Assembly (NCBI RefSeq): GCF_023721415.1
Contig: NZ_JAMQVC010000004.1
Location: forward strand, 62,001-126,000
Source of the DNA: Galbibacter mesophilus
GTDB taxonomy: Bacteria > Bacteroidota > Bacteroidia > Flavobacteriales > Flavobacteriaceae
Direction: 5' to 3'
Length of the DNA: 64,000 nt
The notes under the pieces were generated by a model, which saw only the letters and a list, made by a program, of their open reading frames with translations, had not been told where the DNA came from and searched no databases. A program made the position numbers and the translations under genes. Below are positions 1,570-52,796 of the stretch, piece after piece (the first letter of the stretch is position 1; each line of letters opens with the position of its first letter).

Positions 1570-2326
1570 AATAATTTGATTTGATATTTTTAAGAGCAAT
1601 AAAGGTGAAATTTACATTTTTTATGAAATTTTATGGATGTACCTAAAATTGAGAGTTTTTTAATACTTAAATCAACCATCGATTTCAAATACTTTTGAGT
1701 GAGGAATTAAATAGAATAACGAATCTATTTAACGCTTCTCCCAAAAAATACCATTATAAATTTTTCATTTTCAATCGATATAATCCAAAATTTCAAATCC
1801 CTTCAAAAGGAAATTTCTTTTCGATTGAAAATTCATAAAAAAGCAAAAATCTAACTTTTATTTTACCAAAAATATTTAAAGTATGCCAATATATTTTAAA
1901 ATCATCAAAAGAAAAGCAAAATCATCCATATATATAGTTATTATATCCATTGATACCATATTCTCTAAACCATATATTTGGGAATAAATTAACATTACTA
2001 ACCAAATTGCTTCCTTCGGATCAATCAACTGCTAATTAAATTATACTTAAAATGGACAGAAACAATTTAAAAATGACCACAACAAAAACATCTGCGAATC
2101 TCATTTTTTTAATGTAGAAACTATAACGTTTGCGTATCAAAAGAACTCATCCAATTTTTAAAATGTAAAATCAAAGAGTGAAACTAAATTGTTTAAAATG
2201 CTATTCTATAGATTTTTTTTGCAATAAAAAATAATAGTTAAAAGTACTTTTAATTTTTAATTGATTGAAGTTTTCAAAACGCGTAAACTCCGGAAATTAA
2301 ACAATGATTATAATAAACTTAAACAT
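1570..2326. other. Divergent intergenic region upstream of the SusCDCD operon
   Basis: This AT-rich stretch of about 757 bp lies between a minus-strand sulfatase and the plus-strand SusC gene. It contains no convincing gene. It holds the 57-bp promoter module at 1924-1980, and the implied leader of the SusC transcript is about 340 nt. On the minus strand a TATTTTTG box (1874-1867) could be a -7 element for the sulfatase, but it has no associated repeat. Confidence 0.7.
1924..1980 (+). promoter_or_regulatory. Promoter module 1: 21-bp direct repeat plus -7 box
   Basis: ATCCAT at 1924-1929 is repeated at 1945-1950, exactly 21 bp later. TATATTTG, a match to the Bacteroidota -7 consensus TAnnTTTG, lies at 1973-1980, 28 bp after the start of the second hexamer. 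TTG at 1950-1952 sits 20 bp before the -7 box and can serve as the -33 element, overlapping the second half-site. The same geometry occurs at three other promoters in the window. It is predicted to drive the SusC-SusD-SusC-SusD operon. Confidence 0.75.
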
Positions 2327-5300
2327 ATGAATATAAAGTATTACAAAAGACTTTCACCAGAAAGAAGTTTTTACATTGTAATAGGCTTATTGTTGTTATT
2401 TGGAACCAAAATGATTGCTAAACCTATAAGCAATTCAACAATTTCCAAAAAAACAAATTATTCCTTTTCCCTTGTAGAATTTCAAACTCAAGAATTAACA
2501 ATTACTGGAACGGTAAAAGATGAGAACGGAGTGACCATCCCCGGGGTAAACGTGTACGAAGACGGAAATGGTGGAAATGGGGTTATGACGGATATGAACG
2601 GTAACTATTCCATTAAAATGAAAAACCGAGAGGGTGAACTGGTTTTTTCATTTATTGGTTTTGCTGAAGTTAAAGCATCAATAAATGGAAGGACCGAAAT
2701 AAACATAACACTTCAAGAACAAACCACAGATCTCGAAGAGGTGGTTGTAGTAGGGTATGGTAAACAGAAAAAAGTTACCGTAACAGGAGCCATTTCTTCT
2801 GTAAGCACAGAGGAGTTAACAAGTTCCCCTAGTTCAAGCGTAGCCAATGCCCTTGCAGGTAAAGTCACTGGCTTAAGTTCCATTCAGTATTCAGGGCAAC
2901 CGGGTGCAGACAACGCCAATCTATTAATACGCGGTGTGGGTACACTCTCGCAAGGCAACTCTTCCCCTCTCATTATGGTAGATGGTGTAGAACGGGATTT
3001 TACACAAATAGACCCTGAAGAAATTGATAATATAACCATTCTAAAAGATGCATCTGCTACAGCGGTTTATGGTATCCGTGGTGCAAATGGGGTGATTTTG
3101 GTAACTACTAAACGAGGTAAAATAGGCGAAGCCAGAATATCCGCCAGTTTTAATTACGGTATACAAGAACCAGTGAGGCTGCCCGATTTTGCAGATAGTT
3201 ATACCTATGCTACTGCCTTTAACCGTGCTCAAATTAGTGATGGCGTACCAGAAGATCAGGTACGTTTTACGCCAGATGTGGTAGAAGCTTTTAGGACAGG
3301 TTCCGATCCGATCTTATTTCCAGATATTGATTGGATGGATTATCTCATTCGGTCATCCGCACCGCAGACCAGAGCCAACTTCAACGTTAATGGGGGTACA
3401 GAACGGATAAAGTACTTTTTGTCTTTCAGCCATTTAAATCAAGAAGGAATGTTTAAAACCTTTGATACGGGCACTGGTGAAAACTTTAACTACGAAAGGT
3501 ATAACTACCGCTCGAATATAGATATTGACGTTACCAAATCTACACAACTTTCCATGACTCTAGGCGGTAGAAGCGAAATAAGACAAGAGCCAAATGTAAG
3601 GGAAACCCAAGATCAATTTTTCAGATTTTTATACCGAGCCACTCCCTTCGCATCTCCGGGTATTGTAGATGGTCGCTATATTGTAGACAATGGGGAGTAT
3701 ATTCCCGGCCCTGAGATAATAGATGGTTTGCGGCCGTATTATGGTCGCGGTGGTTTTGTTAGCACAAACACAGTTTATAATTTCGATGCCTCCCTAACAC
3801 AAAAACTGGATGTAATTACAAAAGGATTGGAGTTTAGTGTAAAAGGGTCCTATAACCGTAATGCACGTCAAACCAAAATACGTAATGCATCGCCAGATAC
3901 ATATACCGCATTCTACCTAAAGGATTTTGACGATACTTTACCCGAAGACGATAAAACACTTGTTTTTCCACTGGTATCCAAAGGCGGTAGGTTAAACTAC
4001 AACGAAACGTATGGAAAAAACAGAAGCTGGTATTTTGAAGCCGCTTTTAATTACAACCGCAGGTTTGGAAAACATGAGTTTAGTGGCCTTTTAATGTACA
4101 ACCAACGTTCTAATTACTATCCTGGAGGAAGCTTTAATTATTTGCCAACTGGTTACGTTGGAACAGCTGCAAGGGTTACCTATAACTACGATCGTAGATA
4201 TTTATTGGAGGCCAATTTTGGTTACAATGGTTCAGAGAATTTTGCTGAAGAAAACCGATATGGTTTATTCCCAGCTTTTTCCTTTGGTTGGGTAATCAGT
4301 GAAGAGCAATTCATGAAAAACAACCCGGTAATAGACTATTTTAAACTAAGGGGATCCTATGGTAAAGTGGGAAGCGATAGGCAGGGAAACAATAGGTTTT
4401 TGTATTTACCCGATGGCTACGGAAGAGGTGATGGTTACAGTTTTGGTATAGATGTACCGTCAGACCAACCTGGGTTCGTAGAAACAAAACTTGGAAACCC
4501 CAATGTAACTTGGGAAACCGCTATTAAGCAAAATTATGGTATGGATATAAGAATCCTTAATAATCAATTAGAGTTTAACGTAGATTATTTCTGGGATAAA
4601 AGGCGGGATATCTTAACCACTAGAAACACCGTTCCAGGTTATGTGGCAGCCGTACTGCCCGCAGTAAACATTGGTGCCGTAGACAATAGCGGTTATGAAT
4701 TGAATGTTACCTGGACCCAAAACTTCACCAATTTCAACTATTGGATAAACCCTAATATCTCTTACGCCAAAAACGAAATTGTATTTATGGATGAAGTAAA
4801 ACAGGAATACGATTATCAGTATAGAACCGGAGGAAGGGTAGGCCAGCCTTTTGGTTTTGTTTCTCAAGGTTTTTTTAGCAAAGACGATTTTAATGCCGAC
4901 GGAACCCTTAAAGATGGTTTTCCAGAATACGCAGGTAATGTACAGCCCGGAGATGCCATGTATGAAGATATTAATGAAGATGGAGTAGTAAATGACCTCG
5001 ATCAAAGAGCTATTGGATTTCCGGAATATCCAGAATACACCATAGGTATCAATGCCGGTTTTAAATATAAAAACTTCGACTTTAGGATGTCTTGGGCCGG
5101 AGCAAAAAACACATCGAGGATGCTGGAGGGAGAATTGAGGGTGCCGTTTGGATCCAAAGACGATTTTGGCTTATTAAGTTATTTTGCTGAAGACACCTGG
5201 ACACCTGAAACAGCGGAAACTGCCCGATTCCCAAGACTGACCTTTTCCAACAAAGACAATAATTTTTCCAAAGCTTCCACTATTTATCAATTGGATGCTT

Positions 5301-5518
5301 CCTACTTGCGATTAAAGACCTTAGAAATGGGATATAACCTTAAATCCAAATTTATACGTAAAGCTGGTATTAAAACCCTAAGGTTTTTCTTCAGCGGTTA
5401 CAATCTACTCACCTTCGATAAGTTAGATGGTATGGTAGACCCGGAATCGAAGATAGGTAACAGACCCACACATCCGGCCATGAAGATTTACAATTTTGGA
5501 GTGAAGTTTAATTTTTAA
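2327..5518 (+). CDS. SusC/RagA-family TonB-dependent outer-membrane transporter (first pair)
   Basis: This protein of 1063 residues starts at the ATG at 2327. An upstream in-frame TTG at 2261 would add 22 residues ahead of the signal segment (SFYIVIGLLLLFG) and is less likely. A carboxypeptidase-regulatory-like domain begins at about residue 57 (ITGTV), a TonB-box-like VVVVGYG follows near 139-145, then the plug domain (VDGVERDFTQIDPEEIDNITILKDASATAVYGIRGANG region) and the 22-strand barrel ending in aromatic FNF. It pairs with the SusD 12 bp downstream to import oligosaccharides through the outer membrane using TonB energy. It is the first gene of a four-gene operon under promoter module 1. 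Confidence 0.95.
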   Translation: MNIKYYKRLSPERSFYIVIGLLLLFGTKMIAKPISNSTISKKTNYSFSLVEFQTQELTITGTVKDENGVTIPGVNVYEDGNGGNGVMTDMNGNYSIKMKNREGELVFSFIGFAEVKASINGRTEINITLQEQTTDLEEVVVVGYGKQKKVTVTGAISSVSTEELTSSPSSSVANALAGKVTGLSSIQYSGQPGADNANLLIRGVGTLSQGNSSPLIMVDGVERDFTQIDPEEIDNITILKDASATAVYGIRGANGVILVTTKRGKIGEARISASFNYGIQEPVRLPDFADSYTYATAFNRAQISDGVPEDQVRFTPDVVEAFRTGSDPILFPDIDWMDYLIRSSAPQTRANFNVNGGTERIKYFLSFSHLNQEGMFKTFDTGTGENFNYERYNYRSNIDIDVTKSTQLSMTLGGRSEIRQEPNVRETQDQFFRFLYRATPFASPGIVDGRYIVDNGEYIPGPEIIDGLRPYYGRGGFVSTNTVYNFDASLTQKLDVITKGLEFSVKGSYNRNARQTKIRNASPDTYTAFYLKDFDDTLPEDDKTLVFPLVSKGGRLNYNETYGKNRSWYFEAAFNYNRRFGKHEFSGLLMYNQRSNYYPGGSFNYLPTGYVGTAARVTYNYDRRYLLEANFGYNGSENFAEENRYGLFPAFSFGWVISEEQFMKNNPVIDYFKLRGSYGKVGSDRQGNNRFLYLPDGYGRGDGYSFGIDVPSDQPGFVETKLGNPNVTWETAIKQNYGMDIRILNNQLEFNVDYFWDKRRDILTTRNTVPGYVAAVLPAVNIGAVDNSGYELNVTWTQNFTNFNYWINPNISYAKNEIVFMDEVKQEYDYQYRTGGRVGQPFGFVSQGFFSKDDFNADGTLKDGFPEYAGNVQPGDAMYEDINEDGVVNDLDQRAIGFPEYPEYTIGINAGFKYKNFDFRMSWAGAKNTSRMLEGELRVPFGSKDDFGLLSYFAEDTWTPETAETARFPRLTFSNKDNNFSKASTIYQLDASYLRLKTLEMGYNLKSKFIRKAGIKTLRFFFSGYNLLTFDKLDGMVDPESKIGNRPTHPAMKIYNFGVKFNF

Positions 5519-5530
5519 AAAATTAAGAAA

Positions 5531-12045: not shown

Positions 12046-13327
12046 ATGGCAAAATCCAGAAGAAAATTTTTAACTTCCATTAGCCTACTGGGAGCAATTA
12101 AGACCATCCCTCTTTCTGTTTTAGCTTTAGCATCAAAAAAGAAAAGCTAAAAATTGTATTGTTAGGCACTGGTAATAGGGGAACCTGTTTTTGGGAAAAA
12201 GACTTGTAGATGAATATTCCAACATCCTAGAATTTGTTGGCTTATGCGAAATTAATCCTGGAAAATTGGCGTCCGGCAAAAAATATATTGAACCTCCTTC
12301 CCTACTTTTACCAATTTTGATAAAATGATTAACAAAACCAAGTCAGATCCTATAATTGATACTATAAAAGAATCCACACACCACGAATTTATTATTAAGG
12401 ACTCGAATCACGGTAGTGATGTACTTACAGAAAAACTCCTAACGACAGATGAAAACAAATATCAAAAAATAATTGATGCAGAAAGAAGGTCCAAAAAAAA
12501 CCTAATTACTGGGTTTAATTATAGATGGAGCCCATACATTAAAGAATTATTGGTAAATAACACTGTAGGGATAATCACCTAAGTAGATTCTCACTGGTAC
12601 TTAAACACTTACCATGACGCTTCCTATTTTCGAACATCCCCTGGACTGAGCGAAACAGGAGAAACGTTTGGGTTTCATAAAGCTACCCATCATTTTGATT
12701 TGTTGAACTTGTGGGTAGACTCAGACCCCATTAAGTGTTTGCTTATGAAGCCTTGGAAAACGAATGTAAAAATGGACGTTTTCGAGGAAATAATTATCGT
12801 GATTGTAATTATAAGTCCGAGTGCGACTTCCACAATAGACAAAAGGTCTATGGATCTAATTGTTGCCTTTGAATAGTACGATGGTTAGATAAGGGACAAT
12901 TGTTTGTTTAGAAAAGAAATCAAAATATACGATAAAATGTCTGCCCAAGTAAAATATAAGAACAACGTTTCCTTGAATTATTCCCTATGATAAAGATTTA
13001 GATATTAATCAAGCAGAAATGCACGCTAATGTAGCCCAAACCTCTAAAGATGCAGATAAACATAAACCCATTTATGTACACAATCTTTGGAAAGATTACC
13101 AAGTAATGAAGATTACCTTTTCCAATGCAGACCATGGAGGTGACAATGCCACCCTACACCATAAAATATTTAAAAATCCAGACGCTACCGATCCTTACGT
13201 CCATTTCGCAGGGATAAGGCAATGGGGTAATGCTTATTTTTATGGCATAGCAGCTAGAAAAAGCATTGAATCTGGAGACCCAATAAACATCGCTGAGTTA
13301 ACCGATTGGAACCTAGGGAAAAAAGAA
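12046..13327 (+). pseudogene. Degenerate Gfo/Idh/MocA-family oxidoreductase
   Basis: An ATG at 12046 opens a leader resembling a twin-arginine-like N-terminus (SRRKFLTSISLLGA) but stops at 12148. Fragments of one protein continue in shifting frames: KIVLLGTGNRG (NAD-binding glycine motif), EFVGLCEINPGKL, a 12325-12582 piece ending in GFNYRWSPYIKELL, then VDSHWYLNTYHDASYF after an in-frame stop at 12580. Next come LWVDSDPIK, a frameshifted FRGNNYRDCNYKSECDF-like block, and a C-terminal piece (DHGGDNATLHHKI to YGIAARKSIESGDPINI). The order matches secreted oxidoreductases of this family, some related to GH109. At least five disruptions make a functional product very unlikely. The 3' end runs up to the convergent sulfatase at 13337. 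Confidence 0.88.
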
Positions 13328-13336
13328 TATAAGTTG

Positions 13337-14926
13337 TTATTTCGGTTTTGGAAAATATCGCATCTTACTATACCTAGGATATTCATCAAAGTTCTCAGGG
13401 TTCTCATCTCCTACTCTAGCATCCTTGGTTTGCTTTAATTCATTTACCAATTGTTCGTGCAATTGCTTTGAAATTTCAATATGCTCTTTATCTTCATATA
13501 GATTATCTATACAGTCTGGATCTTCCTTAACATTATACAGTTCGAATTCCGGTCTATAATCAAATGAGAAATCGAAAAATGGTACTATCGAAGGATTGGA
13601 ATAGTTCTCTATTAAAAACGTCTTGGAAGGCGAATCGTCTACATCGGCAAAAATGGTTCCCTGTGTATATTTTCCATTTTCATCAAGGGAATACCTATTT
13701 AAAAGCGTGCCATCTTTTTTGTCATATCGTTGTGGTGCCCCTGCCGGCCACCGGTTGGGTTTTACGTTCCAAATAAGTAAATAGTCTCCTTCTATCACTG
13801 CCCGTTGCGGATATCCCCAATTTTTGTAGCGGGAGGAAGAGTGTCTTTCCCGGGAGGAAAAAACAGGTACTCTAGATACTTTTCCTTCCAGTTGGGAAAC
13901 CAGAGAGCTATTAGATATGGGTAGCATCCCTTTTGAACTTACATTGGTAAGCTCCAAAACTGTTGGTGCTAGCTGAGCAAGACTCACATTTCCACGATAC
14001 TCCATTTTATTAAGATTAGAATTTTTAGGGAACTTAATAGCCAAGGGAACATGTATTCCGTATTCATAACAATTGGCCTTGGTTCGGGGGAAAGGCATTC
14101 CGTTATCGGAAGTAACTATAATTATTGTATTGTCGTACTCGCCTATCTTTTTTAGATAAGAGACCATACGATCTAAATGACTATCAAACCATTCTATTTC
14201 TACGGCGTAATCCAATAAATCACCTTTAACCAAATCGTTATCCGGTAGAAACTTTGGCACCTTTGCATTTTTTAGGCTTTTATTATTTCTTTTCCAAGAG
14301 TCTAATTCATACCCTCTATGTGGTTCTCGTGCTCCATACCAAAAGAAAAATGGTTTTTCACTGGTTTTGTTTTTAGAAACAAACGCTTTAAATTCCTCCG
14401 CATAGTTGATACTACTTATTCCATACGCACTACGATCGTCCTTACTGTCATAATTGATCTTTGCAGTTACAGGCCCAGCCGGGTTATCCATCCTCAGGGA
14501 ATCATTTTCACTATCTGCAAACTTAAATGGGTCTACTCCCTTTCCCGTTCTTCCAACGAGATATCCAGCATTTTTTAGAAGATCTACAAAGGAGATATAT
14601 TTTTTTGGCCACCAAGAAGCGTGTTGCCCTGCCTGTTCGTTCTGCCAAGGATATCGTCCTGTTACTATAGCACTTCTGGAAGGTGCACAGCCAGGGGATG
14701 CCGCATAGGCCTTTGGGAAATAAACACCTTCTTTGGCAATCCTATCAAAAGCGGGGGTTTTTACAAAGCTACAGCCAGCATAAGAAGTATGCGCAAAAGA
14801 CTGATCGTCGCTAATGGCAAATAAAATGTTGGGTTGTTTTTGTGCCGATAAAGAAACGTTGTATAGCAAGGCAAAGCATATCATTAAAACCTTGTATGTA
14901 TGGTAGTATGGATTTACTTTTTTCAT
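13337..14926 (-). CDS. S1-type sulfatase, N-sulfoglucosamine sulfohydrolase-like
   Basis: This protein of 529 residues has a signal peptide ending near VSLSAQ. The metal-site strand is NILFAISDDQ (about residues 33-42). The signature CAPSR has its Cys at residue 80. TSDNGMPFPRTKANCYEYG and the short C-terminal subdomain resemble the heparan N-sulfatase (SGSH)-like group, although marine members of that group act on other sulfated glycans. Its stop abuts the decayed oxidoreductase, and it is divergent from the GH43 gene at 15256. No copy of the promoter module faces it. Confidence 0.92.
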   Translation of the reverse strand: MKKVNPYYHTYKVLMICFALLYNVSLSAQKQPNILFAISDDQSFAHTSYAGCSFVKTPAFDRIAKEGVYFPKAYAASPGCAPSRSAIVTGRYPWQNEQAGQHASWWPKKYISFVDLLKNAGYLVGRTGKGVDPFKFADSENDSLRMDNPAGPVTAKINYDSKDDRSAYGISSINYAEEFKAFVSKNKTSEKPFFFWYGAREPHRGYELDSWKRNNKSLKNAKVPKFLPDNDLVKGDLLDYAVEIEWFDSHLDRMVSYLKKIGEYDNTIIIVTSDNGMPFPRTKANCYEYGIHVPLAIKFPKNSNLNKMEYRGNVSLAQLAPTVLELTNVSSKGMLPISNSSLVSQLEGKVSRVPVFSSRERHSSSRYKNWGYPQRAVIEGDYLLIWNVKPNRWPAGAPQRYDKKDGTLLNRYSLDENGKYTQGTIFADVDDSPSKTFLIENYSNPSIVPFFDFSFDYRPEFELYNVKEDPDCIDNLYEDKEHIEISKQLHEQLVNELKQTKDARVGDENPENFDEYPRYSKMRYFPKPK

Positions 14927-15255
14927 AAAGATGTTTAATTATGGCTACAAGATACTTACAAAAAAGATACTTTTCTCAACAGAGCTATTTATGCCATTTA
15001 AAAGAATTCACCTCTATTAAGTACATAAGAAATTAAAAACCAACAATATAAGATTTCTAAAAATAACCTTCAAAAGCTAAAAATATCCATATCAAAAGCA
15101 ATAACATCCATTTTTTCAACCTCATTTCCATCGTAAATTTGATAGGCTCTATGAAATACGCTAACAATATATTTCATTGAAAACCAATTGAATTACACCG
15201 GACATAGCTAAACGGTCTGGTTCAGAAAAATATACAAACCAAAAACTCAAAATCC
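14927..15255. other. Divergent promoter region between sulfatase and GH43-CBM32 genes
   Basis: About 330 bp of AT-rich DNA without a gene. It contains promoter module 2 (15085-15141) pointing towards the plus-strand GH43 gene. I see no clear -7 box facing the minus-strand sulfatase. Confidence 0.7.
15085..15141 (+). promoter_or_regulatory. Promoter module 2: 21-bp direct repeat plus -7 box
   Basis: ATCCAT at 15085-15090 is repeated at 15106-15111, 21 bp apart. TAAATTTG (TAnnTTTG type) is at 15134-15141, again 28 bp after the start of the second hexamer. Spacing is identical to modules 1, 4 and 5. It is predicted to drive the GH43-CBM32 gene starting at 15256, with a leader of about 110 nt. 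Confidence 0.75.
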
Positions 15256-17947: not shown

Positions 17948-17994
17948 ATGAGGCTGTTTTAAAAGTGTTTGCTTTTGAACAGCCTCATTTTAAT
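17948..17994 (+). terminator. Intrinsic terminator after GH43-CBM32 gene
   Basis: The inverted repeat (17948-17965 with 17972-17988, core ATGAGGCTGTT) is followed by TTTTAAT. It lies 50 bp after the stop of the upstream gene. It also shows that the in-frame ATG at 17965 is not the start of the next gene. Confidence 0.85.
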
Positions 17995-18087
17995 AAAGCA
18001 GTCCCTTTATGTTATGCTAAATTTAAAATGATTTCAAGAACCCTAAATTTTAATATTTACGCTGTGATACAGTCTGAAGGAAAAAAC

Positions 18088-42329: not shown

Positions 42330-45300
42330 TTATTTTTCTGCTTTAACTAGTGCTGATGCCATTTTTAAATGAATGGTAGCCGGTAAATGGTATAAATCTT
42401 TGTCCAGCACTTTTCGAAAACTATCACAGGCTTTTTCTATATTTTGAAGACCAAAATTACCTAACCCAATTAAGAATTCACAATGGATTTTATTACGCTC
42501 ATTTAAATCCTCTTCCCAAATCAATAAATCGGGTAGGGAAACCGCAAAGTAATCCAGCTTTACTTCATCGTTTATATGGCTCTCTCCATAGTTCTTCAAG
42601 TTTTCAAAACGCTCATTGGCTTCGTTTTCTCTTCCCAATTTAACCAGCGCCAAACCTTGGTAAAAAATCTTGTCGGGCTGCTGATCATTATAAAAAATAG
42701 CTTGTACGGGCTCACTTAATCCTTCAGAAGCTCTTTCCCAATATTGTATAGCTTTTTCGGTATCCCCTAATTCATTATGAGCACAGCCTAACCAATATAA
42801 AATATCGTTTTCTTGGGCTCCATGAAGTTTTCCTTCACCTAAATTATGTGGATACTTTTGCGCTTCCTCCAAGCATTTAATAGCTTCTTTAAAGCTTCCA
42901 ATTTTCATTAAATCTTTAGCCAACTCTACATTATTGGCAATATGTTGGGCGGGAACTTTACCTTCGCCACCTTCCCACGGATGAAATTGACGTTCACTCA
43001 ACAATTCCAAAGCCTCTTTGTGCTTTCCTAGAAAACCATAAATACTAAGGCGTTCTAAGTATAAATCGTCTCGCTTTAAAACCAATGGCAAGTTTTTTTC
43101 TAAAATATGCAACCTTTTGGTTAATGAAACGTTTTCCTTTTTATTGAATTGATCCAACTCCATTAACAACCTCGGATTTTGACTGTCTATTAAAAAAGCC
43201 TTTTCTAAATGCTCTCGTGACAAGTCTTTCTGCGATTTTTTATTGTAATAATATAAGGCTAGATTACGGTGGCAAATAGCATTTTCAGTATCATGCTTTA
43301 ATGCTTGTTTCCAGCAGTTTTCAGCCAATTCGTATTGTTTATGTGCATACCAAAAATTCCCTAAGAAGTAATTTGCATTGGCATCTGAAGGATTGAGTCG
43401 AATAGCTGATTGTAATACCACAACTTCTTCAAGCCTGTTAGGAAAACAATAATCCAACGGCATTTCTTGTGCCCTTCCATAATATTTCTTGGTTTGTGCA
43501 ACATTTCCTTTCTGCTCGTAATACCACCCTATAAAATATGGAACCATAGGGTATGATTTCATTTTACCATCATCAAAAGCTTTTAGTAAAGCAATTGCTT
43601 CATCGTAAAAACCGGCCTGTGCATAATCTAATGAAAACTCAATATAATTATGCTCATAATCGCGAATTACCGCTTGGAAATTAGCAAGTTCTACCTCTTT
43701 TTTGTTCAACAGATATTTTTCAAACAAGATTCCAAAACTAAATCCATCTATAGCTAAGGATTCTTCTATTAACTGTTTGCAGGCTTCATTACGGTTTAAT
43801 TTTCTTAACAGAATACACTTTAAGTGGCGTGCTTTATGGTTATGCCAGTTTTTAATAAGGGATTTATTCACCAACTCCAGTGCTTTTTCAAAATCGCCTC
43901 TTATGCAATCAATTTGTGCCAAATTAAAATATCCCGCGTCTTGCCAGGCGGCATTCCAACATCCTTTAAAAAAAGCATCATACGCTTCATCTATTCTACC
44001 GAGAAACTTTAAACTCAATCCTTTGTTGAAATAAGGTTCGCCATCGTACGGATTCGGATTGTGCTGTGTTAGAGTTTCTATGGCCGTTTCAAAATAAGGC
44101 AACGCTTTTTCAAACCTTCCTTTTCTCAAAAGCCAAAGCCCTAACGCATTGTTATTACGCACATCTTTGGGCTCTCTAGATAACGCTTCAAGGTAGTAAA
44201 CTGTTGGGTCGTAAGTAGCATGCCTATATTGTTCTAAATGCAGGCCACGAAGGTATAATTGTTCTACTGTTTCTATTTCTTTGGGAGGTTTGGCTGCTTT
44301 TGCTGCCTCGGGTATTTCTTCAGAAACAACTTTGGTATTGCTCCACCAAACCAAAAGTTTTCCTTTTTGATTAAAAACCTTTACGGTAAGGTCGTACCTT
44401 TTTTCAGGTTCTATTGAAATCTCTTTTTCAAAAACAGTTGAAGGATCCATGTCTAAAGTCTCCTCAAAAACGGCACTCCCTTTTGTTTCCAAGACTATTT
44501 TTATGCCTTTAAAAATACCGGTAGTATAAACTTTTAATACCGCGCTTTCTTCAGAAGTTTCTAAATTTAGTAGTACATCTTTTGTAGCATTTTTTACCAC
44601 CCCTACGTTGTAATACGGCATAAAATACTGTGTAAAACTTTTCTCTTCGTAAGGATGCATCCATGCAAAATCTGGTTGGTTATCGGTATAAACTCCACAC
44701 ATCAACTCTATGTAGGGACCATCTTTGTCGGTAAGGTTTCTATCCCAAGCTTGCCCAAAATCACCATTACCCCATGTCCATTGTTTCTTTCCGGGGGAAA
44801 CATGATGATCGGCAACGTGAAGTAGCCCCCCTTTGCTATCATTTTCGTAACCCCCAACAAAGTCATATTCAGAAGTAATGGCCATGTAAGAAGTCGGTAC
44901 AGGAATATTCTTATATCTTGAAATATCTGTTCCAGGGGAATAATCAACTTTGTAATATTCTCCTTTAGCGATGGGAAATTCTGAAACATCACGCTTTCCG
45001 TGGTCAAACACTGCATTCACATCGGGAGGAAAAACCGATTGGTAATGATCGTTTACCGCTACAGCTGGATTTGCCCACCATAAAAAGGTTTGTGGGTGCG
45101 GACTTCTATTGTACAATTGCGCTTTTATCTCTAAATAGGCTTTATCTGGATGAAGCGTAAAACCGGCCATTCCTTTGGTACGGAACATTCGCTCTACCTC
45201 ACTTACCCAAACCGTAACGCTTCCATCTTTATTTTCTTGAATGATGGAATCTACAGGATCGTAAGTACTTGGTCTATGATGCTGCGGCCAATTAAACTCT

Positions 45301-45668
45301 ATCCCCCCAGAAATCCATGGACCTGTTAAACCTACAAGTGCAGGTTTTATTACGTGGTTGTAATATACAAAATGACGTTCCCTTATTTTGTCGTAAGCCA
45401 TTTGTATTCTTCCCCCTAGTGCCGGAAGAACCATTATTTTTATAAAGTCGTTTTCAATATAAATTACGTCCCACTCTTTATCGATTTTTGTGTCACTAAT
45501 TTCTTCGATTACTGGATGGGGATAAACAGCTCCACTACTGGCTTGATAAACCCTTTTTTCTAGAAAAACTGGATATTTTTCCGGTTTACCAACCTCATAT
45601 GTAGGAATTATTATACGTTCCCTCCAAGCTTTAACATTTGCCATATTGATACTTTTAAGAGAACTCAT
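42330..45668 (-). CDS. DUF5107-domain protein with TPR repeats, probably cytoplasmic
   Basis: This protein of 1112 residues has no signal peptide. An alternative ATG at 45644 gives MANVKAW as N-terminus. Residues about 10-400 match the DUF5107 type (PALGGRIQMAYDKIRERHFVYYNHVIKPALVGLTGPWISGGIEFNWPQHHRPSTY region), which resembles sugar mutarotase-like beta-sandwich folds. From about residue 470 a long TPR array follows (NNALGLWLLRKGRFEKALPYFETAIE and later repeats). The domain is common in carbohydrate PULs. No activity is assigned here. With no export signal and a sugar importer in the same operon, a late step on imported sugar is possible. Confidence 0.85.
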   Translation of the reverse strand: MSSLKSINMANVKAWRERIIIPTYEVGKPEKYPVFLEKRVYQASSGAVYPHPVIEEISDTKIDKEWDVIYIENDFIKIMVLPALGGRIQMAYDKIRERHFVYYNHVIKPALVGLTGPWISGGIEFNWPQHHRPSTYDPVDSIIQENKDGSVTVWVSEVERMFRTKGMAGFTLHPDKAYLEIKAQLYNRSPHPQTFLWWANPAVAVNDHYQSVFPPDVNAVFDHGKRDVSEFPIAKGEYYKVDYSPGTDISRYKNIPVPTSYMAITSEYDFVGGYENDSKGGLLHVADHHVSPGKKQWTWGNGDFGQAWDRNLTDKDGPYIELMCGVYTDNQPDFAWMHPYEEKSFTQYFMPYYNVGVVKNATKDVLLNLETSEESAVLKVYTTGIFKGIKIVLETKGSAVFEETLDMDPSTVFEKEISIEPEKRYDLTVKVFNQKGKLLVWWSNTKVVSEEIPEAAKAAKPPKEIETVEQLYLRGLHLEQYRHATYDPTVYYLEALSREPKDVRNNNALGLWLLRKGRFEKALPYFETAIETLTQHNPNPYDGEPYFNKGLSLKFLGRIDEAYDAFFKGCWNAAWQDAGYFNLAQIDCIRGDFEKALELVNKSLIKNWHNHKARHLKCILLRKLNRNEACKQLIEESLAIDGFSFGILFEKYLLNKKEVELANFQAVIRDYEHNYIEFSLDYAQAGFYDEAIALLKAFDDGKMKSYPMVPYFIGWYYEQKGNVAQTKKYYGRAQEMPLDYCFPNRLEEVVVLQSAIRLNPSDANANYFLGNFWYAHKQYELAENCWKQALKHDTENAICHRNLALYYYNKKSQKDLSREHLEKAFLIDSQNPRLLMELDQFNKKENVSLTKRLHILEKNLPLVLKRDDLYLERLSIYGFLGKHKEALELLSERQFHPWEGGEGKVPAQHIANNVELAKDLMKIGSFKEAIKCLEEAQKYPHNLGEGKLHGAQENDILYWLGCAHNELGDTEKAIQYWERASEGLSEPVQAIFYNDQQPDKIFYQGLALVKLGRENEANERFENLKNYGESHINDEVKLDYFAVSLPDLLIWEEDLNERNKIHCEFLIGLGNFGLQNIEKACDSFRKVLDKDLYHLPATIHLKMASALVKAEK

Positions 45669-45713: not shown

Positions 45714-48566
45714 CTATAGAAAAAGACCTTTTATTTTCTCCTCGCTCAAGGTCACTTTAGGGTTGAATTGACTTTTAGACATATATTTTTTTATGCTGTA
45801 CAACAATTGCTGTGCCTCTAACCTATCTTCTAGATTGCTATGTAAATCTACTCCTGAAACAAAAAGCTTCCCTCCACCCACTTTGGCTTCAAAAAGTAGC
45901 GCAGCTCTTCTGTTTTCAAACCAATCGTCTATAATTCTCACCACAGGAGTTAACGCTGGGGAAAATTCATCTAAAACAATAGCATTGGCGTTGCTCATGG
46001 CATCCCACCATTGCCAATTGGAATGATATTCTGTAGGAAATTCTTTTAATGCGGGATGATTAGGATCACATAGGATTCCCAATGTATGAGGTTTCTGACC
46101 TTTTGTCCATGAAGTATTCCAGAAAATGCTTGAAAAACCTACCCCAATACTGCCTCCCTTTTCTGGTTTTACATCTCCTTTGTTAATGTTCAATAAAACA
46201 CTACCACCATCACGTAAATATTTCAATGTTATGGGGTCGAGCTTATCCGTTACTTTTATTTTATCTTCATCTTCGATTTTACCTTTTTCTCTTGGATAAA
46301 CCCAAACATCCCAAGTGTTTTTGGCATCTGCTACATTAACGGTTAAGGTTAATTTTTCCGCTTTTGTTATGTTGTTAAGGTCTACATTAATTTCTCCTAA
46401 CGGAATTCCATTACCAATTGGAATATCTTTTTTATTAAATTTTCCTTCTGAAAAAATGCTGCCTTCTTTGTTGGTTAACTTCCAAGAAGGAGTTGTATTT
46501 TTTAGTGGAGCAGCCGCAAAGTGAGCAATTTCAATTGATGCTTTAAAACTTTCTGTATTATAAAAAACATGCTTTTTCAACCGAGCCAAAGGAACCGTTT
46601 CACTACAAAATTCTCGGTATTCTTCAGGAGAAACATACCCCTTTTCTTCCCAAAATGCATCTAAAACACCCACTAATGCTGTTCCTTGACCTGGAAAGTC
46701 ATGTAAATCCAATAATTGAAATCCAGCGAAATTTTTTGTCCGTAATGCCGCTTCGATATCTGCTTTGTAGCATAATGTTTGTAATTTTCCAGAAGCGAAT
46801 AGTAAGCTATCGGCTAAAGCACCCATTTGATTTTCTTCAAGGGTTTCTTTAAAAATCTCGAAGTTTTTCGGTTTTAAAACTCCAGTGTATTTTTTCATTT
46901 CCTTAAAGTTTGGATACACACACCATTGTCCTATTTCATGTGCTACGTGCGGCATAGGAGTTTTTTTAACTATTTCGCTGTAATCGAAAGTAGTTTGCGG
47001 GGGTTTGCTGTTAATGATACTTTTTAACTGTTGATTCCAATGCTGAATTCTAGGTGCGGCACTATTATAAAAATCTGCATTTTCAATATACGGCCACCCA
47101 GCCCCACTGGTGTATACTTTTGTGCTATCAACCGCTTTAAAATGATTTACGAAGTCTACCAAATACTCTTTATGGTGATCCCCGCTAGGCTCATTACCAT
47201 AAGCCATCATAACAAAAGATGGATGGTTACCATATGTATCGATAATATGCTGTGCTTCTTTATACAACCATGTGTCAATTGGTTTTCCATCACCTATTTT
47301 AGCCCAAGCAGAAGCTTCCACCTGCAAATAAACTCCAGAGGCATCGGCAGCTTTAAATGCAGCTTCTGGCGGACAATAAGAATGAAAACGCATATGGTTT
47401 AACCCATGGTTTTTTATGGTTTTCATAATCTTCTGCCAAGAACCAACATCTGTAGGGACGTATCCTGTAAGGGGAAAAATAGCACACTCCAATGTCCCTC
47501 TTAAAAACACAGGTCTCCCATTAATAGTAAATTGGGTGCCTTCGGCTTTAAATTCCCGCATTCCAAATTCTACCTTTTTTACATCGGTGCCAGCTTCAGT
47601 TTCTAAAACCAATTCCATTTGGTATAGATTCGTATTAAACTCATCCCAAAGTGCAGGATCATCACCCATAGGATATACCAAACTGAAATCGTTTATCCCT
47701 TTTTCAAACTGAACCTTCTCCTTAAGGGAACTTATTTTATCAGTTAGATTTCCCATTCCTTTTGCGGTGATTAATAATTTTGCCGCTCCAGTCTTTTCAG
47801 AAGGATTATTTATTTTGCCTGTTACAGTAACTTGTTTGCCATTAATATCAGGGATAACTTTAATCTTTTCCAGATGAATTTTGGCCGTAGCTTCCAGCTT
47901 AATTTCCCCAACGACTCCGTTCCAATTGGTTTGGGTATTATCGGAAATACTGTGTGCGTCTTCCCCTACATTGATTTCTTTTATCCGGTTATCTATTCTT
48001 AAAGTAAGTGTGTGTTCCCCTGTTGTTAGTGGCTCACTAACGGTATAGATATGTGGCGTTCCTAATGTATTTTGCATCCCTACTTTTTTATCATCTACCC
48101 AGAGCGTAGTTTCCCAATGCGCCCTTTCAAGAGATAAAGTGATATGCTTATCTTGCCATTCTTCGGGTATGGTTATCTTTTTTTGATACCATGCAGCTCC
48201 TTTGTAAGTTTTATCAGGCTGAAGCCAAAAAGAAACTTTTAAATTATTTGGCTTCCGGTATTTGGCCATTTCAGGACTTTTGTACCACAAACTATCGTTC
48301 CACATATTTCCTGTCCAATGTGTTTGTAAGCTTATATCGTTGCCTTTGCCGTTTTCCGCCATTGAGCCTGGTAGGGATATCGAATCATTCAAATCCATAG
48401 AAAACCACTTTTCTTCCATTCCCTTGTCTAACGAGTCTATTTGAAAACTCCATTTTCCGGAAAGATCAATTACAGAAGTTTTACTTCCTCTCTCACAGGA
48501 TAACAGTACGAATATCCAAGAAAAGTAAATGATAATTTTAAACAGTCTATCAGAAAAAAACTTCAT
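45714..48566 (-). CDS. GH2-family glycoside hydrolase, lipoprotein (paralog of 37455)
   Basis: This protein of 950 residues has the lipobox Cys at 24 (FVLLSC). Its GH2 architecture parallels the protein at 37455-40283. An N-terminal jelly roll carries an insertion (GNMWNDSLWYKSPEM), followed by an Ig-like domain and a barrel with acid/base Glu459 (AYGNEPSGD) and nucleophile Glu544 (AHEIGQW). The C-terminal GGKLFVSGVDLHSNLEDR segment is shared with the paralog. The pair, in one operon with a sulfatase and a DUF5107 protein, suggests related but distinct bonds. Confidence 0.88.
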   Translation of the reverse strand: MKFFSDRLFKIIIYFSWIFVLLSCERGSKTSVIDLSGKWSFQIDSLDKGMEEKWFSMDLNDSISLPGSMAENGKGNDISLQTHWTGNMWNDSLWYKSPEMAKYRKPNNLKVSFWLQPDKTYKGAAWYQKKITIPEEWQDKHITLSLERAHWETTLWVDDKKVGMQNTLGTPHIYTVSEPLTTGEHTLTLRIDNRIKEINVGEDAHSISDNTQTNWNGVVGEIKLEATAKIHLEKIKVIPDINGKQVTVTGKINNPSEKTGAAKLLITAKGMGNLTDKISSLKEKVQFEKGINDFSLVYPMGDDPALWDEFNTNLYQMELVLETEAGTDVKKVEFGMREFKAEGTQFTINGRPVFLRGTLECAIFPLTGYVPTDVGSWQKIMKTIKNHGLNHMRFHSYCPPEAAFKAADASGVYLQVEASAWAKIGDGKPIDTWLYKEAQHIIDTYGNHPSFVMMAYGNEPSGDHHKEYLVDFVNHFKAVDSTKVYTSGAGWPYIENADFYNSAAPRIQHWNQQLKSIINSKPPQTTFDYSEIVKKTPMPHVAHEIGQWCVYPNFKEMKKYTGVLKPKNFEIFKETLEENQMGALADSLLFASGKLQTLCYKADIEAALRTKNFAGFQLLDLHDFPGQGTALVGVLDAFWEEKGYVSPEEYREFCSETVPLARLKKHVFYNTESFKASIEIAHFAAAPLKNTTPSWKLTNKEGSIFSEGKFNKKDIPIGNGIPLGEINVDLNNITKAEKLTLTVNVADAKNTWDVWVYPREKGKIEDEDKIKVTDKLDPITLKYLRDGGSVLLNINKGDVKPEKGGSIGVGFSSIFWNTSWTKGQKPHTLGILCDPNHPALKEFPTEYHSNWQWWDAMSNANAIVLDEFSPALTPVVRIIDDWFENRRAALLFEAKVGGGKLFVSGVDLHSNLEDRLEAQQLLYSIKKYMSKSQFNPKVTLSEEKIKGLFL

Positions 48567-49348: not shown

Positions 49349-50746
49349 TTATTTTAAATCATTGAGTTCCATTTCTATTTCTTCCAAACTTTTCCCTTTT
49401 GTCTCTGGGAGTTTATTTCTGATGAAAAAATATCCCAAAACACAAATCCCACTATAAACCCAAAACGTTCCGTAAGCCCCCAATAAATCGTTTAGTATGG
49501 GAAAAGTGAATGTAAGAATAAAGGATGCCACCCAGAGAGAAAAGGTTGCAATGGACATCGCCACCCCACGCAAACGGTTGGGAAAGATCTCTGAAAGTAC
49601 CACCCAAGTAATGGGTGCCAAAGACATAGCATATATGGCTATCGCAACAATAACCAGTAACAACACAGGCCATCCGTTAAATTCAAAATAATATGCTCCA
49701 CCTAAAATGGCATACACCACCGCCAAGCCAATAGCGCCAAAAAGCATTAGTTTTCTTCGACCCCAGCTATCAACTGTTCGCATTGCTACAAAAGTGAAAA
49801 TAAGATTTACACTTCCAGTAATAATTATATTAAACAGCATATCCCCTACACTGTAACCTGCCGCAGTGAAAATTTCTTGGGCATAATTGAAAATTATGTT
49901 AATTCCACACCATTGTTGGAAAAATGCCAATACAACACCTATGATTAAAATGGGAAGAATAGATGGCTTGGTAAGTTCTGAAAGTTTCATCCTACCTGTA
50001 TCTTTTTTCAAAGTTGCTTCCATACTGGCGTATTCCTCTACAGCATACTTATTTCCACCTATTTTTGAAAGCACATCTGTAGCCTTGTTTTTATCTTGTA
50101 TTTTTGCTAAAAACCGCGGACTTTCGGGAACTGAAAACATCAGCATAAAAAATAGAATTGCTGGAATTAGTTCTCCCCAAAACATCCATCTCCACCCCCA
50201 TTGTCCGTTCCAAGAATTTAGAATTTCTTGATTCCCAAAACTATCTGGGATAGGTTCCGCAATGGCATAATTCGCAATTTGGGCAGCCAAAATACCCACA
50301 ACAATGGTCAATTGATTAATCGCCACAAACTGTCCGCGATACTTTGCCGGTGCAATTTCTGCTATGTACATTGGCGATAAAGTGGAAGCAAGCCCAATAC
50401 CAAGTCCGCCAACCAGCCTGTACAAGATAAACGGAGTGAAGTTATCTACGTATCCTGTTCCGAAAGCCGAAACCGTAAAAAGAAATGCAGCCAACAATAA
50501 CGGTTTTTTTCTGCCATATTTATCGGCTACCATTCCAGAAAGCACAGCTCCCAACACACACCCAACCAAGGCGCTACTCATTGCCCAGCCTTGTAAAGAT
50601 GGTAACTCCGTAATATCAAAATACAATTCGTAAAATGGCTTGGCCCCTCCTATAACTACCCAATCGTAACCAAAGAGAAAACCGCCCATGGCAGATACAA
50701 GTGCTAAAAAAAGTAAGTAAGTAAAGTTGAAATTTTTGTTTTGCAT
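49349..50746 (-). CDS. MFS sugar porter family transporter
   Basis: This protein of 465 residues has about 12 predicted membrane helices. Sugar porter signatures are visible: GFLFGYDWVVIGG in helix 1, DKYGRKK between helices 2 and 3, RLVGGLGIGLASTLSPMYIAEIAPAKYRG, VPESPRFL before the central loop, WGRRK, and the C-terminal PETKGKSLEEIE. It is predicted to move a monosaccharide such as galactose or another released hexose from periplasm to cytoplasm with a cation. It is the second gene of the seven-gene operon, 18 bp after GH30. Confidence 0.93.
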   Translation of the reverse strand: MQNKNFNFTYLLFLALVSAMGGFLFGYDWVVIGGAKPFYELYFDITELPSLQGWAMSSALVGCVLGAVLSGMVADKYGRKKPLLLAAFLFTVSAFGTGYVDNFTPFILYRLVGGLGIGLASTLSPMYIAEIAPAKYRGQFVAINQLTIVVGILAAQIANYAIAEPIPDSFGNQEILNSWNGQWGWRWMFWGELIPAILFFMLMFSVPESPRFLAKIQDKNKATDVLSKIGGNKYAVEEYASMEATLKKDTGRMKLSELTKPSILPILIIGVVLAFFQQWCGINIIFNYAQEIFTAAGYSVGDMLFNIIITGSVNLIFTFVAMRTVDSWGRRKLMLFGAIGLAVVYAILGGAYYFEFNGWPVLLLVIVAIAIYAMSLAPITWVVLSEIFPNRLRGVAMSIATFSLWVASFILTFTFPILNDLLGAYGTFWVYSGICVLGYFFIRNKLPETKGKSLEEIEMELNDLK

Positions 50747-50764: not shown

Positions 50765-52408
50765 TTAGGGATTTATGGCACCAACAAGTGTAGTAATACT
50801 TCTTGGTTGAAGATAAATTTTTTGATTCTCCACAGCTTCAAATCCTAAATTCTTATCTTCTGAAGTAGTATAAGATTTCTCAATTGTAATATTTTCATTT
50901 TCAAGATCAATACTTTTCTCTTCATCAGAATAATTGATGGCAACTAATACGATTTGATTGTTTTTAGGATTTTTATAAGCCGATACCAATACATCTAAAT
51001 ATTGCTCCTTGAGTGATTTTTCAGTTAATAATACTGAGGGAACCCTCACCATACCGGGCCGTACAAACCTAGAGTAATTACCCAAAGCCCACAGTAGTTT
51101 AGAATCGTGGAATTCACCATCGTATTTAAGGGACTCTTTATTGTACATATTATTTTTGTCGCCCGTGTCCAAATAGATAAGTCCATCCTTAAAATCGGCA
51201 ATTGTAATTGCTGTCCACCATTGCCATGACTTTGCGTTGGCCAAGGTTAAGTCTGCATGGATAACACGTGCTACATACAAAGCTGTTTTTATACCCAAAT
51301 CCCTTTTTTGCCCTTTTCCAATATCCTCCGTATTTTCAAGGATGCAGAATTCACTCTGCCAAAAATCAATTTGATGCTTCCCTAAACTTTTATTCAATTC
51401 TTTTCTGATGGAAATTAAGCTATCCACCGGCCAGGTCGTAAAATAGCTGTGACCTGAAACTTTTCTAGGCACTTTCGCATAATTCCCTACATAAGATTTA
51501 TCATCTTTGAATGATTCCCCAAAAAACGATTCTATTTGATTTGCTCTTGGAGCTCTGCCATGATTGGAATAAAGAAAACGTAAATCGGCGGCTTCAGGAA
51601 TTACAATTTCTGTTGCTAAAGATTTGTTCTCGATTCCATCATTCAGCATTCCCACTAATTTTGCAATATTCTCGTTGGTAGCAGGAGTTCCTTCTTGACT
51701 TGGTTTTTGCCAATCCCATTGCGGCTCGTTAATAGGACTCAAATAATCGAATGCAATACCTTCGTTTTCAAAATGGTCCAAAATTTCAACCATAAAATCG
51801 GCATAGTCTTGATAATGTTCCTCCTTTAAATTCAAAAACTTTTTATTAGCCTTGTTATACCCCGTACCGGTATTTGACCAAAATGTTGGGACCGCAATCG
51901 AAAACGCTAAAAACTTCTCAACGCCAGCCGCTTTAGCTTTCTTTAAAAACCACTGTTGCCCAGCTTGCTTAGACCAATCATAAGTCTCATTGTTATCTAT
52001 AAAAGATTCTGCCCTCCTCCACTCGTTCCTTATCTGGGAAGTATCGCCCTGCTCCGCAGTTCCCGCACCGATATAAAAACGCCATAAAGAAATTCCTATC
52101 CCTAAAGGATTTCCATCAGTATCAAAATCTTTACTGAAAAGCCATTTAGCCATCCTTTCTTTTTTGTGCTGAGGCCAATTTGCACCCACAAACTGGCAAC
52201 GCCAAGCATCTGAAGCACCGAAACCATCAATGGTTTGCATATTTTTATCGGTATCTATTTTCAAAGAGATGGATTGGGAAAATACATTGCCCGTTAGAAA
52301 CCAAAACGCTAATACCAAAAAGTAATTTATGCCACAAAGAATACTCCCTGAGCTATATCCTCTAGTAACCATAATTGATAGATTCTTTCTTAGTGTCTGA
52401 AAATCCAT
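50765..52408 (-). CDS. GH30 glycosidase, endo-beta-1,6-galactanase-like
   Basis: This protein of 547 residues starts at ATG 52408; an alternative ATG at 52372 keeps the signal (NYFLVLAFWFLTGNVFSQ). MQTIDGFGASDAWR at about residue 57 and NPLGIGISLWRFYIGAGT are typical of GH30. Acid/base is Glu228 (INEPQWDW) and nucleophile Glu353 (WQSEFCILEN). A C-terminal beta-sandwich closes the protein. The NEPQWDW/QSEFC combination resembles bacterial endo-beta-1,6-galactanases of GH30. It heads the seven-gene operon under promoter module 5, behind a long leader with a strong hairpin. Confidence 0.9.
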   Translation of the reverse strand: MDFQTLRKNLSIMVTRGYSSGSILCGINYFLVLAFWFLTGNVFSQSISLKIDTDKNMQTIDGFGASDAWRCQFVGANWPQHKKERMAKWLFSKDFDTDGNPLGIGISLWRFYIGAGTAEQGDTSQIRNEWRRAESFIDNNETYDWSKQAGQQWFLKKAKAAGVEKFLAFSIAVPTFWSNTGTGYNKANKKFLNLKEEHYQDYADFMVEILDHFENEGIAFDYLSPINEPQWDWQKPSQEGTPATNENIAKLVGMLNDGIENKSLATEIVIPEAADLRFLYSNHGRAPRANQIESFFGESFKDDKSYVGNYAKVPRKVSGHSYFTTWPVDSLISIRKELNKSLGKHQIDFWQSEFCILENTEDIGKGQKRDLGIKTALYVARVIHADLTLANAKSWQWWTAITIADFKDGLIYLDTGDKNNMYNKESLKYDGEFHDSKLLWALGNYSRFVRPGMVRVPSVLLTEKSLKEQYLDVLVSAYKNPKNNQIVLVAINYSDEEKSIDLENENITIEKSYTTSEDKNLGFEAVENQKIYLQPRSITTLVGAINP

Positions 52409-52453
52409 TATTTTTCGGTTTAATCTGTAATATTATTGCTGATAAACTTTGAT

Positions 52454-52504
52454 AGCAACTTTGTTTTCAGCCACTTTAAAAAAGTGACTGAAAACAAAGT
52501 TGCT
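52454..52504 (-). other. Long perfect hairpin in the leader of the GH30 operon
   Basis: The 24-nt arms at 52454-52477 and 52481-52504 are complementary with a 3-nt loop. The single mismatch on the plus strand becomes a G-U pair in minus-strand RNA, so the transcript can fold completely. It ends 46 nt before the GH30 start codon. No U-run follows, so it is not a normal intrinsic terminator. It may stabilise the mRNA, block ribosomes or bind a protein. Confidence 0.7.
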
Positions 52505-52739
52505 AACTAATCTAATTAAACTAAATTGGCAATTCCACTGTCTATAATAGGTTCAAATATCCTCTAATCTTTTTCTTTTCGATGAAAAATAACTAAACAT
52601 TTAAAACATAGATTATTAAATTCATCTTTAGCTAAAACAGTCTATCACTTAAAGAATATTCAAAACAAAAGTTTATTGTCAAATTCACAATTTTAAATAC
52701 TGTTTCTTACACAAGAAGAATATCTAAATATGATTTTTT

Positions 52740-52796
52740 CAAAAATATATATTTATAAATGTTAAAAAAATAGACATAAACTTCTTAAATATGGAT
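52740..52796 (-). promoter_or_regulatory. Promoter module 5: 21-bp direct repeat plus -7 box
   Basis: On the minus strand ATCCAT (52796-52791) is followed 21 bp later by GTCTAT (52775-52770). TATTTTTG (52747-52740) lies 28 bp after the start of the second hexamer. Total length is 57 bp, as in modules 1, 2 and 4. It is predicted to drive the operon from GH30 to the GH2 at 37455. Confidence 0.75.

Follow-up and report, generated by a model that had tools for sequence, protein, structure and literature searches.

Four operator-promoter modules of a putative AraC-family regulon in a polysaccharide-utilization locus of Galbibacter mesophilus

The window analysed here is a 64,000-nucleotide stretch of the Galbibacter mesophilus genome (assembly GCF_023721415.1, contig NZ_JAMQVC010000004.1, positions 62,001 to 126,000 of the forward strand), which carries four copies of a 57-bp promoter module spread over what looks, from its predicted genes, to be a gene cluster for digesting sulfated galactan. 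Each module is composed of two RTCYAT hexamers 21 bp apart and a TANNTTTG box, and the gene of an AraC-family protein lies next to one of them. The modules, the transcription units behind them and the regulator gene are arranged as follows.

1924-1980, + strand: operator-promoter 1, before the SusCDCD unit; first half-site AAGC-N7-TCCATA
2261 (TTG start) or 2327 (ATG start) to 11936, + strand: SusC-SusD-SusC-SusD (SusCDCD) unit, downstream of module 1924
15085-15141, + strand: operator-promoter 2, ending 115 bp upstream of the GH43-CBM32 gene
15256-17898, + strand: GH43-CBM32 protein, exo-beta-1,3-galactanase-like, with a T9SS sorting domain (Pfam; PDB 3vsf, E 8.8e-58; also 7bys and 5flw)
35046-35102, - strand: operator-promoter 3, before the six-gene operon
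34797-24289, - strand: six-gene operon (S1 sulfatase, GH2, GH43 and three sulfatase-like genes)
52740-52796, - strand: operator-promoter 4, between the AraC gene and the seven-gene operon
52408-37455, - strand: seven-gene operon (GH30, MFS, GDSL, GH2, DUF5107-TPR, S1 and GH2)
53120-54004, + strand: AraC-family regulator of 294 residues with a cupin sensor and a double helix-turn-helix (Pfam AraC_binding, Cupin_2, HTH_18 and HTH_AraC)

The four modules and their rarity

Scanning both strands of the window with RTCYAT-N15-RTCYAT-N22-TANNTTTG returns exactly four matches, at the positions where the initial annotation had placed the modules, and in all four the 21-bp hexamer repeat and the perfect -7 box are held at the fixed distance it had described, with the second hexamer ending 22 bp upstream of the box. 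Its assignment of the modules to gene starts also stands, with the SusCDCD unit, the GH43-CBM32 gene and the six- and seven-gene operons all served. The box corresponds to the flavobacterial sigma-A box TAnnTTTG as published in PMC9723704. The half-site nearer the promoter adjoins or overlaps the -35/-33 region (22 bp to TANNTTTG, 21 or 22 in relatives), and in the -33 element TTTG occurs near -33 in one of the four modules and TTG in two. The layout may be read as a 21-bp direct repeat of half-sites, each with an A-box near (T/A)AGT, 7 bp and a B-box TCYAT; the A-boxes of the window modules are AAGC, AGCT, TAGG and AAGT.

The full pattern is absent from 300 dinucleotide-preserving shuffles of the window, in which the half pattern RTCYAT-N15-RTCYAT is found 0.11 times on average (maximum 3) compared with five times in the real window. 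Among window RTCYAT pairs 6-60 bp apart a spacing of 21 is seen five times and every other spacing at most twice. With up to three mismatches the full pattern gives five matches, the four modules and one more, compared with 1.24 expected in all, and the half pattern with up to one mismatch is hardly enriched (9 compared with 4.45 expected; 1 of 100 shuffles reached that many). The AT-rich composition of the window (37% GC) and the commonness of the -7 box, with 77 copies of TANNTTTG, would suit a constitutive upstream promoter element or a chance pattern working without any regulator; the absence from all 300 shuffles, the single preferred spacing, the four stand-out sites in the whole genome and the link to one regulator, both described below, leave this explanation scarcely credible.

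The spacers were described in the initial annotation as not conserved, which holds for five of the six module pairs, sharing 9-18 of 37 bases, and fails for the pair 35102/52796, which shares 23 of 37, a value equalled in 0.1% of shuffles. A copied-repeat origin of the modules was rejected on the five dissimilar pairs; modules 35102 and 52796, with their 23 shared bases, may still be kin by copying. The operator flanks are conserved among relatives. An RNA element was also discarded as an explanation, no Rfam family being found in the window at the gathering threshold.

The operator in relatives and across genomes

The AraC protein was searched in 299 family genomes at E <= 1e-20 and matches were found in 33 of them, own genome included, where the regulator is the sole match at that threshold (best 8 of 26 candidates scored). 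RTCYAT-N15-RTCYAT is present in 19 of 30 loci of ~3.9 kb around these matches, counting the own locus. Twenty larger regions (15-20 kb) were fetched around orthologs, and the 29 relative loci comprise 429,686 bases. These hold 26 RTCYAT pairs at spacing 21, compared with about 1.4 expected per spacing and six or fewer at every other spacing from 6 to 80, and the sites precede MFS-GH2-DUF5107, GH30, SusC or other operons adjoining the regulator. Of the 32 rows with hexamer spacing 20-22, 13 have the TANNTTTG box, allowing up to one mismatch, at offset 21 and 10 have it at offset 22, one row falling in both counts. Two of the 20 regions, L048 and L049, have no RTCYAT pair, and pairs in L034 are confined to coding frames. 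Two loci, L043 (site at 10596) and L046 (site at 10460), carry the operator beside the ortholog, and in L043, which was scanned, it drives planctomycete-type cytochrome/DUF1553 and DUF1501 genes and not glycoside hydrolases; the frames of L046 are nearly equal in size.

A sequence-only model, termed R1 (alignment A2), was derived from 27 of the 32 pattern rows, all from other genera near AraC orthologs and none from the own genome; the five rows left out lie within coding frames or run antisense to them (L032 19655 and 6609, L034 2871 and 11856, and L037 19580). In the window R1 scores the four modules at 22.0-35.5 bits and the next best site at 11.1. Across the genome (3,770,994 bases in 8 contigs, best 150 of 4653 candidates scored) the modules are the sole matches listed at E < 0.2, the fifth having E 0.21. 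Module 35046 scores 35.5 bits (genome-wide E 3.3e-8), 52740 scores 32.7 (E 2.4e-7), 1924 scores 24.9 in the window and 22.0 genome-wide (E 6.0e-4) and 15085 scores 22.0 and 21.8 (E 6.7e-4). The frequency check proposed in the initial annotation, made with R1 in place of the exact pattern, leaves the four modules standing out and not lost among chance matches. R1 also matches G002, the genome of L034, at three places, one of them near the AraC gene, and G228, that of L048, 48 kb from the AraC gene.

The four scores fall into two pairs, with 22-25 bits at 1924 and 15085 compared with 33-36 at 35046 and 52740. Both half-sites of 1924 and 15085 are ATCCAT and the A-box of 15085 is poor, which would suit a division in which the AraC protein operates only 35046 and 52740, the other two being weak by-standers or under another regulator. 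Modules 1924 and 15085 nevertheless rank third and fourth among the matches listed for the 3.77-Mb genome and lead the fifth by about 8 bits, and in genome G115 the operator L032:13192 stands before the homologous GH43 gene, itself preceding SusCDCD. The AraC-class position weight matrix (PWM) is also favoured at both sites, and such a division appears unlikely.

A relatives' test set was made up of 20 of the 26 pattern rows in L117-L133, with one row (L127) moved to the hybrid two-component system (HTCS) class described below and five dropped (L119 15179, L121 4771, L130 3446 and L131 17635 and 19030), the first of which may be a genuine site, with a perfect box 21 bases downstream. In these hand-picked sites, four of them further sites of the training genomes G115 and G153, the box, allowing up to one mismatch, falls at offset 21 in 17 of 20 and at 22 in two.

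Operator and regulator were then compared over 397 family genomes, counting R1 matches at E <= 1e-3 and orthologs at E <= 1e-49, a threshold chosen after seeing the gap between 2.2e-50 and 7.5e-25; the two draws of 397 genomes were taken as the same, their handles agreeing. R1 has 85 matches in 53 genomes and the ortholog is present in 37. R1 sites occur in 33 of the 37 genomes with the ortholog compared with 20 of the 360 without (Fisher p 6e-30), and after exclusion of the 22 training genomes in 11 of 15 ortholog genomes, or 10 of 14 minus the own genome (p 2e-9). The distance to the regulator is at most 100 kb for 57 of the 63 R1 matches in ortholog genomes and for 25 of 27 in the non-training ones among them, own included. 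Genome G339 has four R1 matches along 44 kb of one locus, and around the match G374:C23:283709 the fetched stretch (L120) contains no RTCYAT pair. A phylum-wide draw gave R1 matches in 16 of 296 genomes, eight of them in the same family.

The 20 R1-positive genomes without the ortholog were sorted by reading into nine linked to SusCD-GH92 or HTCS, one of another polysaccharide-utilization locus (PUL), six termed type B and four without an RTCYAT pair at the match (G059, G104, G288 and G363); the first 16 were read as having ordered sites that belong to other regulators. The SusCD-GH92 loci without an AraC ortholog carry RTCCAT-N15-RTCCAT with a -7 box, and two proteins of ~1344 residues beside such sites have the full HTCS architecture (Reg_prop, HisKA, HATPase, receiver and HTH_18). 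The same hexamers, with flanks that differ, occur at these loci and at the operon of another AraC group (type B); the pair itself is therefore not specific to this regulator, and to that extent the AraC-type operator reading of the initial annotation has to be narrowed; its sites, their conservation and their association with the regulator hold.

These neighbours, and two HTCS-sized frames in the own genome, one of them ~22 kb before the first module, raise the question of whether the four modules answer to an HTCS regulator and not to the AraC protein. The AraC-class PWM scores higher than the HTCS-class PWM at every module (31.5 compared with 19.8 at 1924, 18.5 with 10.3 at 15085, 38.1 with 27.0 at 35046 and 38.4 with 21.5 at 52740), and none falls in the HTCS class as given by the spacer TTTTTGAAT with RTCCAT in both halves, bearing in mind that the HTCS (20 sites) and type B (6) classes were sorted by eye and the PWMs scored on their own sites. 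In the nearby HTCS-sized gene the helix is a different one (NDYKYFKDSFKK), the 26 kb around this gene, its own SusCD included, contain no RTCYAT pair, and operator presence tracks the AraC ortholog across genomes. Control by an HTCS is on this evidence very improbable.

Several neighbouring observations belong here. The own genome encodes 23 AraC-type domains, two of them in HTCS-sized frames (1339 and 1334 residues). The gene with helix NDYKYFKDSFKK (G000:C4:37395-41408, L181:1396-5409; HTCS-sized, 1337 residues, with its own SusCD) is the one ~22 kb before the first module. Type B operators are close to GAAAATTRTCCATCCATTAACGAAAATTRTCCATTTT (L137:8927, L138:9740, L143:842, L145:9441, L147:9175 and L151:9871), with the box at offset 22 and one mismatch in six of six; in L137 and L151, which were scanned, the operator is followed by a gene for a carboxymuconolactone decarboxylase-like protein and, beyond that, by one for an AraC-type regulator, and L151 also has DUF1348. 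The GH92 gene at 17965-20415 (+), perhaps cotranscribed with GH43-CBM32 (15256-17898), is 58-64% identical to GH92 proteins from SusCD-GH92 loci that have RTCCAT operators of their own, which gives it the look of a gene taken over from a different regulon.

One further hexamer pair of the window had been overlooked in the initial annotation.

59142-59168, - strand: fifth RTCYAT-N15-RTCYAT pair, 75 bp before a SusC gene (55996-59067)

A TANNTTTG box at the spacing of the modules is lacking here; a TAATTTTA stands 32 bp downstream, one helical turn further than in the four modules. The pair is not found by the R1 scan of the window, and its AraC-class PWM score is 9.6 compared with 18.5-38.4 for the four modules and 14 for the weakest accepted relative. 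On these two scores it was rejected and is probably not a member of the regulon.

The regulator, its operator and the gene products

The best NCBIfam model of the regulator is E. coli AraC (NF007860; 102.9 bits over residues 53-292, E 1.4e-29), and the score falls short of the curated equivalog cut-off of 208. E. coli AraC is related to it over both domains. In an alignment of E. coli AraC with 15 relatives, residues R38, H80, Y82 and W91 are identical in 16 of 16 rows and W95 in 15 of 16. The second recognition helix reads DPLYFSRIFKK in the regulator; E. coli AraC has DQLYFSRVFKK, and three HTCS-sized proteins from GH92 loci have DPLYFSRCFKK. Helix and half-site were compared over 113 AraC-type loci (+-1.5 kb), 23 from the own genome, where recognition helices were read for 18 of the 23 domains, and the 90 best scoring of 311 in six others. 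An RTCYAT-21 pair is present in two of two loci with a D(P/Q)LYFSRxFK helix compared with 2 of 111 others (p 0.0009), a weak result as the two are the window protein and the ortholog of G227, a training genome; the 13 other YFSR helices among the 113 loci have no RTCYAT-21 site. A related-locus search of the genome contigs with the AraC protein as query found none.

The predicted structure of the regulator has a mean pLDDT of 89.5. By E-value the structure matches listed are led by full-length CsvR, Rns and ToxT, whose whole chains superpose poorly (TMt <0.4, root mean square deviation (rmsd) ~24). BgaR, an AraC-family lactose sensor ranking below these three by E-value, gives the best sensor-domain superposition among the 50 matches listed (PDB codes 6nwj/6nx3; TMt 0.70, rmsd 3.9, 22% identity), whereas the arabinose-bound AraC domain superposes less well on the predicted structure (TMt 0.57). 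The BgaR-like superposition would fit a galactose-like ligand, short of showing one; such a sugar has the same ring stereochemistry as arabinose.

The operator is, like that of E. coli araBAD, a 21-bp direct repeat of half-sites. By majority, the first half-site reads TAGT-N7-TCCATA over the 27 sites used for training (T 14, A 26, G 15, T 21 and last A 14 of 27, TCYAT being fixed by selection), and the consensus (T/A)AGT-N7-TCCATA resembles the araI1 half-site TAGC-N7-TCCATA, with exact TAGY boxes in a minority of sites. From the start of the second B-box to the promoter box there are 27 bp in the window modules, 26 or 27 in relatives and 26 in E. coli by a hand count to TACTGT, the araBAD -10. 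Each of the two regulons includes a sugar porter. The window system differs in belonging to another phylum, in its putative control of polysaccharide-utilization operons and in having the Bacteroidota sigma-A box TANNTTTG in place of the -10. The araI1 site is TAGCATTTTTATCCATA, followed by the next TAGC 21 bp on, in the primer table of PMC2893085, and its sequence was found in E. coli K-12.

Other known systems share parts of this arrangement. Bacteroides HTCS with AraC-type domains are described with direct repeats upstream of PUL genes, on average 21 bp between sites (PMC3878776); they are membrane sensor kinases, whereas the window protein is a one-component AraC without a predicted kinase, and the motifs in that source are given as logos. 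Zobellia CgrA (ZGAL_3159) is likewise an AraC-family PUL regulator of a marine flavobacterium beside sulfatase and glycoside hydrolase genes, with a different substrate, its deletion having impaired growth on carrageenans; the main text of that report, in the parts covered, gives no operator for it (PMC5698469). AT-rich direct repeats are reported for Vibrio XylRA, a different regulator (PMC12125979). No report of an RTCYAT operator motif was found in the small share of the matching literature covered, mostly abstracts, and literature on the hexamer GTCCAT is unspecific.

The individual gene products bearing on the substrate and on the sugar that may be sensed are these.

28793-29935, - strand: GH43, exo-beta-1,3-galactanase-like, in the six-gene operon (PDB 6eug, E 6.1e-120; also 3vsf, 7bys and 5flw)
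50765-52408, - strand: GH30 enzyme, first gene of the seven-gene operon (Pfam; PDB 3clw, E 2.8e-108)
49349-50746, - strand: major facilitator superfamily (MFS) sugar porter, XylE-like (NCBIfam XylE model, 410 bits, under the cut-off of 608)
45714-48566, - strand: GH2, exo-beta-galactosidase-like (NF049890, BT4151 exo-beta-1,4-galactosidase, 1215.7 bits, below the cut-off of 1500)
42330-45668, - strand: DUF5107-TPR protein of 1112 residues

A sulfated beta-galactan is the probable substrate because the relatives of the GH43 enzymes include exo-beta-1,3-galactanases and two GH2 proteins match the exo-beta-1,4-galactosidase model, both below its cut-off. The structure 7bys is named Galactan 1,3-beta-galactosidase and 5flw exo-beta-1,3-galactanase; 3vsf and 6eug are counted with them but carry other names from their depositors, 'Beta-glucanase' in the case of 6eug. 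S1 sulfatases are assigned by Pfam at 13337, 24289, 33190, 35335 and 40324, and those at 25769 and 27251 are taken as such from their translated starts alone. Homologs of the MFS porter (64-81% identity) and of the DUF5107-TPR protein (58-71%) recur near the regulator in many relatives. Two minor frames complete the locus. That at 13019-13438 (+, 139 residues) is 59% identical to about one-fifth of a 465-residue protein of G115 (L131:12796-14193) and is possibly a gene remnant; that at 23707-24174 (-, 155 residues), between gene 20863 and the six-gene operon, is presumably IS200-type transposase-like.

A putative regulon and its meaning

Because the sites are rare in the genome, conserved across genera and tied to the regulator gene, the four modules are very probably operator-promoters of the AraC-family protein 53120-54004. 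Judged from sequence comparison, the regulon signature is real and the operator is of a known kind conserved across many genera. The initial reading, an AraC-type direct-repeat operator beside a sigma-A promoter and shared by a regulon, gains support from the genome scan, the cross-genus conservation and the association with the regulator.

A number of observations weigh on the other side. The exact pattern is absent, in the window scan, from the sulfatases 13337 and 35335, gene 20863, the AraC gene and the second SusCD pair, and module 15085, the weakest of the four (R1 22 bits), is without an A-box. Sites were picked by the RTCYAT pattern, and conservation of the RTCYAT columns is partly due to that selection; over 42 sites the majority first half-site becomes AAGT-N7-TCCATA, the exact A-box being TAGT in 8 of them and AAGT in 12. 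R1 E-values are rough, searches over more than 40 genomes were run under stricter filters, and with 150 of 4653 candidates scored in the own genome and 12 per family genome weak sites may be missed. Four of the 37 ortholog genomes (G020, G030, G203 and G347) have no R1 site at E <= 1e-3, the regulator gene of G347 having an in-frame stop; the sole R1 match of G228 is 48 kb from the regulator and that of G127 is on another contig. In the own genome, the 20 kb around one HTCS-sized protein, whose helix is NDPNYFSRAFKK, contain no RTCYAT pair. The E. coli AraC positions P8, T24, M42 and H93, some of them arabinose contacts, are not conserved in the 16-row alignment.

Regulation by the AraC protein could proceed as follows. 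The galactanases and sulfatases would free a sugar from the polysaccharide, which the XylE-like MFS porter would import and the cupin domain of the regulator would bind, the sugar being perhaps galactose-like. A regulator dimer would then occupy both half-sites, with the promoter-nearest subunit contacting sigma-A/RNA polymerase and replacing the poor -33 element, in a class II activation as at E. coli araBAD. The SusCDCD unit, GH43(-GH92), the sulfatase-galactanase operon and the GH30-MFS-GH2 operon would thereby be switched on. Binding, activation, the galactose-like ligand and the polymerase contact are all inferred, the occupancy of the repeat and the contact from what is established for AraC.

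A more far-reaching and rather doubtful idea is that a single operator code spans phyla and regulator types, with the D(P/Q)LYFSRxFKK second helix reading the B-box TCCAT at a fixed 21-bp repeat, almost constant in its distance from the promoter, and the first helix and A-box giving specificity. The same code would join E. coli AraC, the one-component PUL regulator of the window and the HTCS of GH92 loci, and the window regulator would be a relative of AraC whose ligand had changed from arabinose to a galactose-like sugar. The exact TAGT boxes, a minority of the sites, speak slightly against the idea.

Few operators of one-component PUL regulators appear to have been mapped in marine Bacteroidota, and a motif of such specificity may allow regulons to be read from sequence, including units tens of kb from the regulator as in G339 and G374. 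The surprise lies in the closeness to araBAD in another phylum and in a B-box common to one-component and hybrid two-component regulators. Sugar-inducible expression in flavobacteria could draw on the modules as promoters whose layout is known, and the likeness to araBAD would make decades of work on the AraC mechanism testable in a phylum whose primary sigma factor is unusual.

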